DNA of 64,000 nt from Cognatundibacterium griseum. GTDB taxonomy: Bacteria > Pseudomonadota > Gammaproteobacteria > Burkholderiales > Burkholderiaceae_D. Location of the stretch: assembly GCF_014284195.1 (NCBI RefSeq), contig NZ_JACOGC010000002.1, positions 1-64,000 on the forward strand. The letters are read 5' to 3'. The position numbers were made by a program, and so were the translations under genes. Of this stretch, positions 20,970 through 25,775 are shown one piece after another (the first letter of the stretch is position 1; the number at the start of each line of letters is the position of its first letter). The notes beneath the pieces were generated by a model, which ran no database searches, was not told the DNA's origin, and saw only the letters and a program-made list of their open reading frames with translations.

Positions 20970-22340
20970 TTATTTTGTGTCTGGAAGGCTTTGCTGCACG
21001 CTGCCTATCGTAATGTCTGCAGTTCCTCTGGCGAGCCTGACGGTCAGTATTGCGGCAGGTTGCAGCTCGCTGGCAGAGCGCAGGGAATGCCCTTTACGGT
21101 CGCTCAGAATGGCATAGCCGCGTTCCAGCGTGCGTTGCGGGTTCAGTAATTCCAGTTGCGTCTGTAAAGCCGTTAAATGCTGCTGCCGGGAACCGGACAT
21201 TTGTCGTTGCGCCTGTTGCAGACGGCGCTGCCATTCGTCCAACCGCAGGTGTGCGGCAGAGGTCTGCGGACGATGGGTCGTGAACTGATTCTGCAGATAG
21301 TGCAGCCTTTGCATTGCCCGTTGCAGCGGCAGTGCCGCACTCAGACGCAGACGCTGTGCCAGATGTTGCAATTGCTGATGACGCAGCGCGAGTGTGGCGG
21401 ACGGGCTCAGCAAGCGTCGCCCCAGCCAGTCCAGATTCTGCTGTTGCTCCTGCACACGGCGGCGCATGGCGCGCTGCATCAGCTGTTGTTGCGCAAGGAG
21501 TTGCGCCATCCAGTCACTGCGCGGCGTTGCCGCCAGTTCGGCGGCGGCGGTCGGGGTCGGCGCGCGCAGGTCTGCGGCGAAATCGGCGATGGTGAAGTCG
21601 GTTTCGTGCCCGATGCCGGTAATGACCGGAACCGGGCAATGGGCGATCGTGCGGGCCAGGGTTTCGTCATTGAAAGCCCACAGGTCTTCCATGCTGCCGC
21701 CGCCACGGCACAGCAGCAGGACATCGCATTCGGCCCGCGCAGCAGCAGTGGCTATGGCCTGCGCGATTTTTGCCGCAGCGCTCTCCCCCTGCACCGGTGT
21801 CGGGTACAGAATCACCTGCACATGCGGCGCCCGTCGCTGCAGCGTCGTCAGGATGTCGCGCAAAGCGGCTGCCTGCGGGCTGGTCACGATGCCGATCGTG
21901 CGCGGAAAAGGTGGCAGCGGACGTTTACGCGCCGGATCAAACAAACCCTCTTGCGCGAGCTGCGCCTTCAGGCGCAGGAAAGCCTCATACAGATTGCCGA
22001 TGCCGGCACGCCGGATGGCTTCGACGCTTAACTGGTAATCGCCGCGGGGAGCGTATAAGGAAACCAGCGCCCGGACCTCCACCTTGTCGCCCTCGCGCGG
22101 CTGGAAGTCGGCATATTGTGCGCGTCCGCGAAACATCACCGCCCTGACCTGGGCGGCTTCATCTTTCAGTGTGAAATACCAATGTCCCGAAGCGGCGCGG
22201 GTAAAGTTGGATATTTCGCCAGAAACCCATGTCAGCGGTATATGACGCTCCAATAACTGAGCAACCGTCTTGTTCAGCGCCGAAACACTGATGACAGCAG
22301 GCGTGGTTATTGGGTTTGGTTCAGGAAATTCAGTATTCAT
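20970..22340 (-). CDS. xseA: Exodeoxyribonuclease VII large subunit
   Basis: Catalytic subunit of ExoVII, which degrades single-stranded DNA to oligonucleotides with the small subunit XseB (not in this window). It has the N-terminal OB-fold ([35 protein letters not shown]) and the conserved core [30 protein letters not shown] and [15 protein letters not shown] long helical, Gln- and Arg-rich region forms the C-terminal coiled coil. I start at ATG22340 (456 aa, normal length); in-frame ATGs up to 22427 exist, but their extra residues are not conserved. No convincing RBS decides the matter. Its upstream side borders the repeat region with DnaA-like boxes. Confidence 0.94.
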
Positions 22341-22503
22341 CAAGGCTGGCATTGGAAAAGCTGTCCACAGAAGCGCTGGGTCATGGTCAGGACGGTACTC
22401 TGCCATATTCCTGCCCGGGAAATGCAAATTTTTTCAGTAAGTCGTTGATTTTCATTATAAAAGCATTTGCAAGTTACTTGTGCAATATGAAAATTTCCTT
22501 ACA

Positions 22504-22568
22504 AATCAAGGGCGTTACTCAGTGATACAGTGCTTGTGCACAAACTTATCCACAGAAAAGGTGCATAA
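22504..22568 (+). repeat. IHF/DnaA-box module 1
   Basis: IHF-like AATCAA...TTA (22504-22517) has one extra base in the spacer. It is followed by boxes TTGTGCACA (22534-22542), TTATCCACA (22546-22554, a perfect strong DnaA box) and inverted GGTGCATAA (22560-22568). The distance from the TTR triplet to the second box is 31 nt, as in all modules. Confidence 0.75.
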
Positions 22569-22664
22569 GCTGTGAGTATCTTTTTTTACCGGGCTGGCAG
22601 GCATGTCTGATGTCTCGCATGTTTTTTCTGATGATTTTTTGAGCACAATCTGAATTGTGAATGA

Positions 22665-22728
22665 AATCAATCACTTACCGTTATTTCTTTTTCTTTTGCA
22701 CAATGTTGTCCACAAAAAATGTGCAGAA
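22665..22728 (+). repeat. IHF/DnaA-box module 2
   Basis: AATCAATCACTTA (22665-22677) matches the IHF consensus WATCAANNNNTTR exactly. Boxes follow: TTTTGCACA (22694-22702, full match to TTWTNCACA), TTGTCCACA (22706-22714) and inverted TGTGCAGAA (22720-22728). Confidence 0.8.
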
Positions 22729-22834
22729 TGTCCCTGAAATCCACAAGAAAATTTCTTCAGATCATCGGGCAGCCGGTTTTGCTGTCTTTTGGATGGCGCG
22801 CCTAAAAAACAGGCGGCGATAAATTTTTATTTAA

Positions 22835-22898
22835 AATCAATGATTTAAGATGATTTTCATTTGCTTATCACACACTTGTCCACAAAAAATGTGCAAAA
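22835..22898 (+). repeat. IHF/DnaA-box module 3
   Basis: AATCAATGATTTA (22835-22847) is an exact IHF consensus match. Boxes: a degenerate CTTATCACA (22864-22872), TTGTCCACA (22876-22884) and inverted TGTGCAAAA (22890-22898), the last a full consensus match on the minus strand. Confidence 0.8.
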
Positions 22899-23015
22899 AC
22901 ATGCCAGATCCGCCTGCCGGACCGGAATTGGCGGTTTTCCGGGACGAATTTAAGGTGTTTTGTGAACGGATTGCAAGTATGCTTATTTTTTAAGCGAAAA
23001 ATTTTTATCAATATA

Positions 23016-23079
23016 AATCAAATACTTGAGATTTTTTCTAGGAATTTTACACATACTTGTCCACATAAAATGTGCAGAA
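23016..23079 (+). repeat. IHF/DnaA-box module 4
   Basis: AATCAAATACTTG (23016-23028) is an exact IHF consensus match. Boxes: TTTTACACA (23045-23053, full match), TTGTCCACA (23057-23065) and inverted TGTGCAGAA (23071-23079). Confidence 0.8.
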
Positions 23080-23184
23080 TCAGGGACTTATTCAGGCAGG
23101 AAACGGAGCTGCCCGGATTTTCAGCAAAAACACGGCAAAACGGCTTGTTGCCTATTTTGTTTGCACAAGAGTAATTGTTTTTGA

Positions 23185-23248
23185 AATCAGTGACTTAATG
23201 AATTTTTCTGCATTTGTTCACACGTTTGTCCACACAAAGTGTGTAAAA
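23185..23248 (+). repeat. IHF/DnaA-box module 5
   Basis: AATCAGTGACTTA (23185-23197) has one mismatch to the IHF consensus. Boxes: TTGTTCACA (23214-23222), TTGTCCACA (23226-23234) and inverted TGTGTAAAA (23240-23248, full match on the minus strand). Confidence 0.75.
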
Positions 23249-23334
23249 GAAGCGAGCTACATTTTGTTTTGAAATATGTTTTTTGCAATGAAAATCATTG
23301 CCTAATTCTTCAGCGAATCATAAAAAACCTATGA

Positions 23335-23398
23335 TTTCAAAGACTTGGAAGGCATTCATTGGTTTATCCACAAGCTTGCGCACAGATTTTGTGTAAAA
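23335..23398 (+). repeat. IHF/DnaA-box module 6
   Basis: TTTCAAAGACTTG (23335-23347) has one mismatch to the IHF consensus. Boxes: TTATCCACA (23364-23372, perfect strong DnaA box), TTGCGCACA (23376-23384) and inverted TGTGTAAAA (23390-23398, full match on the minus strand). Confidence 0.75.
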
Positions 23399-23441
23399 CG
23401 GGGATGAATGCTGAAAGAAACACATTTTCTGCGCCATGCTC

Positions 23442-23470
23442 TTGCCGGTATGCCTGCAAAGCGCTACATT
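23442..23470 (+). promoter_or_regulatory. Possible promoter of exbB
   Basis: TTGCCG (23442-23447) and TACATT (23465-23470) are 17 bp apart, each with four of six consensus matches. They lie just downstream of module 6 and 37 bp before the exbB start. Weak evidence. Confidence 0.35.
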
Positions 23471-24117: not shown

Positions 24118-24567
24118 ATGAATTTTCGTAAAGGTCAGAGCAGGGAAGAGCCGGAAATCAACCTGATTCCGTTCATTGACGTATTGCTGGTGATCCTGAT
24201 TTTCCTGATGGTGACCACGACCTACAGCCGGTTCACCGAACTGCAGATCACGCTGCCGACGGCAGATGCTGAAAAAGCGCAGGAAAAACCGAATCAGATC
24301 GAGATCGGTATTGATGCGCAGGGGCGGTATAAGATCAACAACCAGGCGGTCTCGTTTCTGGATACCGCGACTCTGGCGGATGACCTGCGGCGCACGGTCA
24401 GTGCCATGAATGGCGCTAACGGCGGCGGTCAGCCGGACCCCGTCATCATCATCAACGCAGACCGTGCTGCCACGCACCAGTCGGTGATTGATGTGCTGGA
24501 GGCGGCGCGCATTGCCGGGCTGGCCAAAGTCACTTTTGCAGCACAGGCTGCGAACCGTTCCAGATAA
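24118..24567 (+). CDS. exbD: ExbD/TolR family protein
   Basis: A 149-aa protein with a single N-terminal transmembrane helix, INLIPFIDVLLVILIFLMVT, carrying the conserved proton-conducting Asp (PFIDV). A periplasmic domain ends in NADRAATHQSVIDVLEAARI, the ExbD/TolR C-terminal motif. It partners ExbB encoded 5 nt upstream. It is distinct from the partial exbD at the window's left edge, whose C-terminus is different. Confidence 0.93.
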   Translation: MNFRKGQSREEPEINLIPFIDVLLVILIFLMVTTTYSRFTELQITLPTADAEKAQEKPNQIEIGIDAQGRYKINNQAVSFLDTATLADDLRRTVSAMNGANGGGQPDPVIIINADRAATHQSVIDVLEAARIAGLAKVTFAAQAANRSR

Positions 24568-24731: not shown

Positions 24732-25775
24732 ATGCGCATCTGGCTGGAAAACAGCTTGCTACGGGCATGGCAGAAACGGGGCCTGCTGGCATATTTGCTG
24801 CGCCCCTTGTCTTTGTTGTTTCAGTGGATCGTGGCATTCCGCTTCGGATTGTTTGTCATGGGCTACAAGGCGCAGACCCGCTTGCCGGTGCCGGTCATCG
24901 TGGTTGGCAATATTTATATCGGGGGAACCGGTAAAACGCCGCTGGTGATCTGGCTGGTGCAGCAGTTGCAGAAGGCAGGGTGGCATCCCGGCGTGGTTTC
25001 CCGCGGATATGGTGCAGCCGCTGATAATGTGTCGCTGCTTGATGCGCATGCGGATGCTGCGGTAGCCGGTGACGAGCCGGTATTGATTGCGCAGCGTACT
25101 TCTGTGCCGGTTGCCGTTGGCCGGGGCAGGGTAGCCGCAGCCCGGGCATTGCTGCAGGCTTTTCCGGATACCGATGTGTTGATTGCCGATGATGGTTTGC
25201 AGCATTATTTTCTGGCACGGGATATTGAAATCATGCTGTTTGACCAGCGTGGTGCGGGAAATGGCTGGATGCTACCCGCCGGCCCTTTGCGCGAGCCCTT
25301 GACACGGCGGCGTGATTTCACGGTGGTGAATGCGCCGGAACAGATTGCTCTGACGCAGATTCCGGGCGTACCGGCAGCAGCCGTGCGGATGCAGCTGATT
25401 GCGCAGGATGCTTATCAGCTGATGCAACCGCAACGGCATCAGGCTTTATCTGAGATGACAAATACCCGGGTGATTGCCGCCGCCGGGATCGGCAATCCGC
25501 AGCGTTTTTTCATGATGTTGAAAGCAGCCGGCTTACAGTGTGAAGAAATGCCGCTGGCAGATCATCAGCATTTTCACAGCGGTATTTTTGCCGGGCGCAA
25601 TGCGGATTGCATTCTGATCACTGAAAAGGATGCAGTAAAATGTCGCCAGATTCCAGCTTTGCAAACGGATGCCCGGATCTGGGTAGTGCCTGTTGAGGCG
25701 CAGCTTGATCCTGGTTTTGCGGCTGATTTATTACCTATGATTGCGGAGAAAAAGCATGGACGCACGTCTGCTTGA
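24732..25775 (+). CDS. lpxK: Tetraacyldisaccharide 4'-kinase
   Basis: Inner-membrane-associated kinase that phosphorylates the lipid A precursor at the 4' position. An N-terminal membrane helix ([20 protein letters not shown]) precedes the P-loop GGTGKT (64-69) within [25 protein letters not shown] and IADDGLQHY follow. The 347-aa length is typical. The start lies just behind a strong terminator. The 3' end overlaps the Trm112-like gene by 20 nt, and kdsB follows, so lipid A and Kdo steps are encoded together. Confidence 0.96.

Follow-up and report, generated by a model that had tools for sequence, protein, structure and literature searches.

A tandem array of six candidate DARS2-type units between xseA and exbB of Cognatundibacterium griseum and its possible role in the timing of DNA replication

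The xseA-exbB locus

The spacer between xseA and exbB of Cognatundibacterium griseum contains six sequence modules, all in one orientation, which were analysed within a window of 64,000 nucleotides (contig NZ_JACOGC010000002.1, positions 1 to 64,000). Each module consists of an IHF-type motif followed by three DnaA-box-like sites, referred to here as boxes III (first), II (middle) and I (inverted). In all six modules, the first box lies 12 bp before the middle box and the inverted box 14 bp after it, leaving a gap of 5 bp, and the distance from the TTR of the IHF-type motif to the middle box is 31 nt; the 16-bp linker between the IHF-type motif and the first box is unconserved. The middle boxes of modules 1 to 6 start at positions 22546, 22706, 22876, 23057, 23226 and 23376, neighbouring modules are 150 to 181 bp apart, and the array comprises 18 DnaA-box-like sites within less than 1 kb of an AT-rich spacer (37% G+C over 22450-23450). 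The features of the locus are as follows:

20970..22316, minus strand: xseA, for the large subunit of exodeoxyribonuclease VII, one flank of the array (its mechanical ORF extends to 22427)
22504..22517, plus strand: module 1, IHF-type site AATCAA-GGGCG-TTA with one extra spacer base
22534..22568, plus strand: module 1, core with box III TTGTGCACA, box II TTATCCACA and inverted box I GGTGCATAA
22665..22677, plus strand: module 2, IHF-type site, exact WATCAANNNNTTR
22694..22728, plus strand: module 2, core TTTTGCACA / TTGTCCACA / inverted TGTGCAGAA
22800..22814, plus strand: module 3, Fis-like site with one mismatch to GNNYANNNNNTRNNC
22835..22847, plus strand: module 3, IHF-type site, exact
22864..22898, plus strand: module 3, core CTTATCACA (weak first box) / TTGTCCACA / inverted TGTGCAAAA
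22981..22995, plus strand: module 4, Fis-like site GCTTATTTTTTAAGC, complete match to GNNYANNNNNTRNNC
23016..23028, plus strand: module 4, IHF-type site, exact
23045..23079, plus strand: module 4, core TTTTACACA / TTGTCCACA / inverted TGTGCAGAA
23185..23197, plus strand: module 5, IHF-type site, one mismatch
23214..23248, plus strand: module 5, core TTGTTCACA / TTGTCCACA / inverted TGTGTAAAA
23335..23347, plus strand: module 6, IHF-type site, one mismatch
23364..23398, plus strand: module 6, core TTATCCACA / TTGCGCACA / inverted TGTGTAAAA
23507..24112, plus strand: exbB, the other flank of the array
24118-24567: exbD, downstream of exbB
24732-25775: lpxK, after exbD

xseA was named by an earlier sequence-only reading of this DNA and by the NCBIfam xseA assignment of the core-adjoining ORF in locus L134, and lpxK by NCBIfam on an ORF in the same locus; the two genes between the array and lpxK are taken, in line with that reading, to be exbB and exbD. 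xseA is a conserved flank of the array, and the gene order at the exbB flank is retained in many of the xseA loci compared.

The sequence-only reading had placed six modules at these positions, with the 31-nt spacing, the box offsets of 12 and 14 bp and an IHF motif with three exact copies, two with one mismatch and one with an extra base, all of which was found in the sequence. The exact copies belong to modules 2, 3 and 4, those with a single mismatch to modules 5 and 6, and the one with the extra base to module 1. Its module size of 64 bp is too small: the conserved columns begin about 66 bp ahead of the first box and continue through the inverted box, which gives a unit of roughly 100 bp. 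It had also assigned a perfect box to modules 1 and 6; in module 1, this is indeed the middle box (TTATCCACA), but in module 6, TTATCCACA is the first box and the middle box is TTGCGCACA. In the inverted box of module 1, GGTG stands in place of the TGTG found in the other modules. The Fis-like site of module 4 has counterparts at the equivalent place of the other modules, with one mismatch in modules 2, 3, 5 and 6 and two in module 1.

Six sites in the array region score at least 25 of 27 at the module geometry, whereas 400 random sequences generated with a first-order Markov model of matching composition contain no site of at least 25 and, on average, 0.0025 sites per region of at least 23. 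A search of the whole genome with up to two mismatches returned nine pattern matches, namely the six modules, one good core at C10:131803 and two weak ones, and a reversed control pattern matched once. A coding region appears unlikely, as the ORFs of at least 60 aa located in the spacer are mechanical and short, with 66-71 aa. A structured RNA, the alternative named in the sequence-only reading, was rejected since the window has no Rfam match at the gathering threshold and the conserved parts correspond to binding-site motifs.

The same reading had asked whether the modules are kept in relatives while the rest drifts. Conserved modules with drifting spacers were observed in the comparison with a congener (L111), in which identity is 100% for box II, 93% for box I, 91% for box III and 83% for the IHF motif, and 79% for the Fis-like site, 60% for the 16-nt linker and 62% for the spacers. 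Identity of box II and the IHF motif lies above that of the spacers in four of the seven relatives compared (L111, L253, L002 and L033); two others (L255 and L256) align poorly and show little contrast, and the comparison with L001 is little informative because it is a near-identical relative. In the closer relatives, the boxes and the IHF motif are kept and the linkers drift.

Core geometry and comparison with E. coli

E. coli DARS2 is an element of 455 bp located between rppH and mutH, which requires IHF and Fis, and DARS1 is an element of 101 bp between bioD and uvrB. In the sequences of both, box I is followed by an inverted box II after 14 bp and by an inverted box III 12 bp further on. 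Read on the other strand, the core is III, II (+12) and inverted I (+14), which is identical to the arrangement in the window. PMC5742627 describes a box spacing common to DARS1 and DARS2, with box I facing the other way from II and III, and the head-to-head pair of boxes I and II is described as functionally essential (excerpt of PMC10380432; see also PMC8682772). All six modules contain this three-box core with the spacing of DARS1 and DARS2 and with box I opposite to II and III. The core of module 1 is identical to that of DARS2 at 29 of 35 bases, and the six modules have 20-25 of 35 bases in common with DARS1. In an excerpt of PMC5742627, DARS1 is presented as one unit that releases ADP without IHF or Fis, in which it differs from the modules described here.

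Around 216 anchor boxes from both strands of 81 xseA loci, a CACA box lies at -12 in 167 cases on the array strand and in none on the opposite strand, and an inverted CACA box lies at +14 in 160 and seven cases, respectively; the next commonest offsets account for 15 and 20 cases. Modules were found in 57 of the 81 loci, 198 in total with the window included, of which 31 loci contain at least two and 26 one. After removal of modules that were at least 75% identical, 137 remained, of which 123 belong to the Oxalobacteraceae set and 14 lie at xseA loci outside it. These 137 modules, none of which is from E. coli and which stem largely from the same family, were used to train a core matrix of 35 columns. 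The matrix was then applied to five selected stretches of the E. coli MG1655 genome, together 249 kb, which hold DARS1, DARS2, datA, oriC and one other region. The first two hits were the core of DARS2, with a score of 26.6, and that of DARS1 (21.8), and the likeness to the E. coli cores hence goes beyond the single boxes. The training modules score 22.0 to 54.4, so the DARS1 core lies just below the lowest of them. The third hit (12.2) is located within the DARS2 region, the fourth (9.2) at datA and the fifth (0.9) at oriC.

The datA locus promotes ATP hydrolysis, not ADP release, and combines DnaA boxes 2, 3 and 7 with a single IBS. Like the array, it is non-coding and pairs DnaA boxes with an IHF site, as each unit of the array does, and the tandem arrangement places each IHF site between the boxes of neighbouring units, which would fit a datA-like locus that stimulates ATP hydrolysis. 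Within a module, however, the boxes are all on one side of the IHF site, and datA has no III-II-I core and scores 9.2 with the matrix as opposed to 26.6 for DARS2 and 21.8 for DARS1. We prefer DARS over datA because of the head-to-head pair of boxes I and II accompanied by box III and because of the matrix scores, and regard a datA-like function as very improbable.

A degenerate core-like site is present in the DARS2 region of MG1655 at position 2969451 (L238), parallel to the DARS2 core and 316 bp from it. Its double box is one that is listed under a DnaA ChIP peak in an excerpt of PMC11317965. Judged from its sequence, DARS2 might hold the relic of a second unit. Among 165 pooled, redundant cores, box III is mostly of a TTGC type (G at position 3 in 64%, C at position 4 in 70%), which is off the E. 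coli consensus and is maybe a weaker site.

IHF and Fis sites

In the Oxalobacteraceae set, 94 of 123 modules have a match to the IHF consensus, with no more than one mismatch, within 75 bp on their upstream side, compared to 6.9 in shuffled sequences and 11 downstream. The matches are concentrated at offset 30 (n=56) and offset 29 (n=37), and five are found elsewhere; in this set, the IHF site thus occupies a fixed place on the box III side, as is expected for the DARS2 type. In the 14 modules from outside, this place lacks an IHF match; one of the 14 has a match with at most one mismatch, which is located differently. The conserved columns also include an A-rich tract 10-14 bp ahead of the IHF motif, which fits known IHF sites. 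Further upstream lies a palindrome-like TGCC...GGCA element that fits the Fis consensus given in an excerpt of PMC8682772. Perfect matches to this consensus are present upstream of 20 of the 123 modules of the Oxalobacteraceae set (5.9 in shuffled sequences, 12 downstream), with offsets of 64-66 in 17 cases, and upstream of six of the 14 outside modules (0.9 in shuffled sequences, one downstream). When one mismatch is allowed, the count is 95 upstream versus 73 in shuffled sequences and 87 downstream, and because this excess is small, the Fis site stays a proposal.

DARS2 itself has two IHF-type motifs, 3 bp apart and 58 bp past box III, which by their sequence are probably IBS1-2, and a complete Fis match beyond them. 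The order of core, IHF site and putative Fis site is the same in DARS2 and in the modules, and the nearer DARS2 motif has the orientation of the modules' IHF site. The distance differs: the modules' IHF site is 16-17 bp from box III, whereas that of DARS2 is about 42 bp, or four helical turns, further away. The modules also differ from DARS2 in having one IHF site per unit, in their packing into about 100 bp and in their place in the genome. Furthermore, E. coli has one full DARS2 unit, whereas the xseA arrays contain two to seven in tandem.

Arrays within the family and helical phasing

A match to xseA was found in 124 of 126 genomes of the family. Ninety of the 124 xseA regions were searched, a non-random sample that comprises 30 regions taken automatically and 60 of the other 94 picked by hand down the list, with some short contigs and close duplicates skipped. 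In this sample, 27 regions have no core at the threshold, 23 have one and 40 contain two to seven modules. Arrays are thus frequent in the family, though not universal, and the 27 regions without a core and the 23 with one indicate that an array is not needed for DARS function as such. The single copies seen outside the family suggest that one module is the ancestral state.

The spacing between neighbouring modules was examined in 62 non-redundant intervals out of 159 and clusters at multiples of 10.63 bp (95% bootstrap interval 10.50-10.76), with an R of 0.64 and a mean phase of 0.00 turns. An R this large was absent from 5000 jittered sets, and also from 2000 sets over periods of 5-25 bp and 18000 over 9.5-12 bp. 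When the 42 distinct spacing values alone were used, R was 0.55 (0 of 5000 jittered sets as high), and with one interval per distinct array the phasing was weaker (R 0.52, n 35, p about 8e-5). A first, overlapping interval set, which overlaps in lineage with the set of 62, had given 10.8 bp (R 0.49, n 82), and three control landmarks gave R values of 0.11-0.16. Since the spacings cluster at whole turns, modules tend to share one face of the DNA, an arrangement that independent units would not need.

The phasing also bears on the question whether the array is a titration sink, in which the boxes would hold DnaA off oriC and thereby delay initiation, with IHF merely compacting the DNA. Such a sink would be served by 18 box-like sites in less than 1 kb, multiplication of modules raises the number of sites, and titration is, according to an excerpt of PMC12371093, an active model in E. 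coli. A sink, however, needs neither the 12/14 geometry, a single orientation and an inverted third box nor an IHF site at a fixed offset or helical phasing, and the first boxes are often off consensus (TTGC-type). We therefore consider titration unlikely, although it is the least improbable of the alternatives to DARS. Six clusters of DnaA boxes outside oriC, which affect initiation, have been described for B. subtilis in an excerpt of PMC13220808. By this description they resemble the array in having several DnaA boxes away from oriC and differ from its modules in that the host is said there to be without IHF and DARS.

Distribution of single cores

Within the order, the exact core pattern was found in 188 of 250 genomes and, within the class, in 194 of 274; the reversed pattern was found in one of 250 and none of 274, respectively. 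In 18 of 23 genomes, a core lies within 600 bp of xseA, a rate that is biased because the genomes were chosen for their core matches and mostly have long contigs. A second recurrent place emerged from 23 core loci, which represent 22 distinct places (L113 and L132 are the same place) and include two xseA loci (L134 and L135): a PriA-like neighbour is encoded at 12 of the 23 loci (11 places) and a HemE-like one at eight. The window's own genome has a second core at this place (L136/L141; C10:131798-131832), between genes assigned to hemE and priA by NCBIfam. This hemE-priA core, which recurs across the order, consists of the three perfect boxes TTTTCCACA, TTATGCACA and inverted TTATCCACA and shares 27 of 35 bases with DARS1. 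Two cores 465 bp apart occupy the hemE-priA place of another genome (G007), among the matches listed.

These additional places are relevant to a possible control of xseA and/or exbB transcription by DnaA and IHF, with boxes III and II acting as a 'double DnaA box'. Pairs of boxes 2-3 bp apart are described as E. coli DnaA targets, promoters included (excerpt of PMC11317965), and the array is located in a divergent spacer between xseA and exbB. Transcription control would, however, not account for the inverted box I at +14, whose frequency (160 of 216 anchors) is close to that of box III (167), nor for the recurrence of the same core beside priA and elsewhere; in genome G053, the core adjoins lpxK with xseA far away. 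Regulation of the flanking genes is thus improbable as the main function, and less likely than titration.

Outside the family, cores are dispersed in six many-core genomes, save for one pair 401 bp apart in G430. A genome from another family of the order (G176) contains, among the matches listed, two core pairs, 292 and 435 bp apart, one of which lies between lpxK and xseA. Pairs hence occur outside the family as well, and those of G176 possibly represent an independent start of an array; they correspond to loci L103 (contig C5) and L134 (contig C14). Among the matches listed and the six many-core genomes, arrays longer than pairs were seen solely in the family of the window.

Position in the chromosome and protein partners

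For 15 genomes of the family, selected because their chromosome contig is long, the position of the locus was determined with dnaA in place of the origin. Expressed as a fraction of the chromosome, the distance between the locus and dnaA is 0.215-0.382 in the ten genomes with an array (median 0.305) and 0.146-0.314 in the five with fewer than two modules. The corresponding distances from oriC in E. coli are 0.206 for DARS2 and 0.329 for DARS1. In the window's own genome, dnaA is probably not at the origin. In the sampled part of contig C10, the predominant sign of the GC skew switches from negative to positive near 90-95 kb, and six perfect DnaA boxes are located at this change (C10:94573-96376, L244), which is likely oriC. 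From this candidate, dnaA (C10:243550) is about 148 kb away and the hemE-priA core 36 kb; mnmG lies at about C10:116.4-118.3 kb. In a relative (G056), GC skew in twenty 20-kb samples was too noisy to place the origin.

The array itself might be taken for a main or auxiliary replication origin, given that it is AT-rich and contains many DnaA boxes and IHF sites. However, when the window is divided into sixteen blocks of 4 kb, each of them has a positive GC skew, and the change of sign lies elsewhere, beside the six perfect boxes of contig C10. An origin was rejected on these grounds and appears extremely unlikely.

The genome encodes DnaA, IHF alpha and a Fis homologue (40% identity over 80 residues). 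A second ORF with a DnaA domain may be Hda.

A model for the array

The DARS sequence features that were looked for are all present in the modules; of those of the DARS2 type, the IHF site is present, albeit at another distance, and a Fis site is proposed. The locus is probably a tandem array of six DARS2-type units, which would reactivate DnaA-ADP as a cooperative station. The unit would be composed of a Fis-like site, an IHF site and the DnaA boxes III, II and inverted I. The comparisons show the geometry of the core, the conservation of the motifs, the IHF offset, the spread of the core, the position of the arrays in relatives and the helical phasing; occupancy by DnaA, IHF and Fis, release of ADP and cooperation between units we infer. 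On the head-to-head pair of boxes I and II, ADP-DnaA would be bound with the aid of DnaA on box III. Strain placed on this complex by IHF bending, and perhaps by Fis, would drive ADP out and free apo-DnaA, which could then bind ATP. Because adjacent units tend to be whole helical turns apart, their complexes could face the same side and touch each other. The array would then act as one cooperative station for DnaA reactivation, at a distance from dnaA that amounts, as seen in relatives, to about 30% of the chromosome. It is tempting to speculate, with somewhat less than even confidence, that two to seven DARS2-type complexes on one DNA face form a regular stack bent by IHF, which acts as a collective, steep switch from ADP- to ATP-DnaA, and that the number of units tunes the timing of initiation by lineage. 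The sequence evidence suggests that the array helps to time DNA copying, with the units acting together.

DARS-like sequences are reported for many proteobacteria (excerpt of PMC10380432), DARS2 is said to be retained by relatives of E. coli among the beta- or gammaproteobacteria (excerpt of PMC5742627), and its core is described as conserved among gammaproteobacterial relatives of E. coli (excerpt of PMC4245941). The sequence-only reading had proposed a multi-copy DnaA-titrating or nucleotide-switching locus that was not known in Burkholderiales. Its description of a multi-copy DnaA/IHF locus away from dnaA is supported by the sequence, and the geometry favours DARS among the options; its claim of novelty is only partly right in view of these reports. 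In the literature searched (listed titles and abstract openings, with few subscription papers), no tandem DARS and no DARS at xseA were found, and the DARS work found there concerns E. coli and single units. What appears to be new is the tandem, phased form, whereas DARS as a kind is known and said to be widespread.

Arrays of two to seven copies with a conserved inner geometry constitute a natural dose series for DnaA reactivation, and the whole-turn spacing predicts contacts between neighbouring complexes. Since the reversed control is close to zero, the 12/14 core pattern can be used to map candidate DnaA-recharging sites in beta- and gammaproteobacteria, with xseA and hemE-priA as two recurrent places named here.

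Two further observations were made in the course of the searches. The contig of locus L039, titled as an Alistipes MAG, encodes an Oxalobacteraceae-like xseA (58% identity) and is probably mislabelled or derived from a mixed bin. Symmetric double cores, in which the pattern occurs on both strands 12 bp apart, such that two forward and two inverted boxes surround one head-to-head pair, were found among the matches listed at G119 C1:79740, G194 C1:229670 (L096, L097), G453 C62:64822 and G332 C16:2909.
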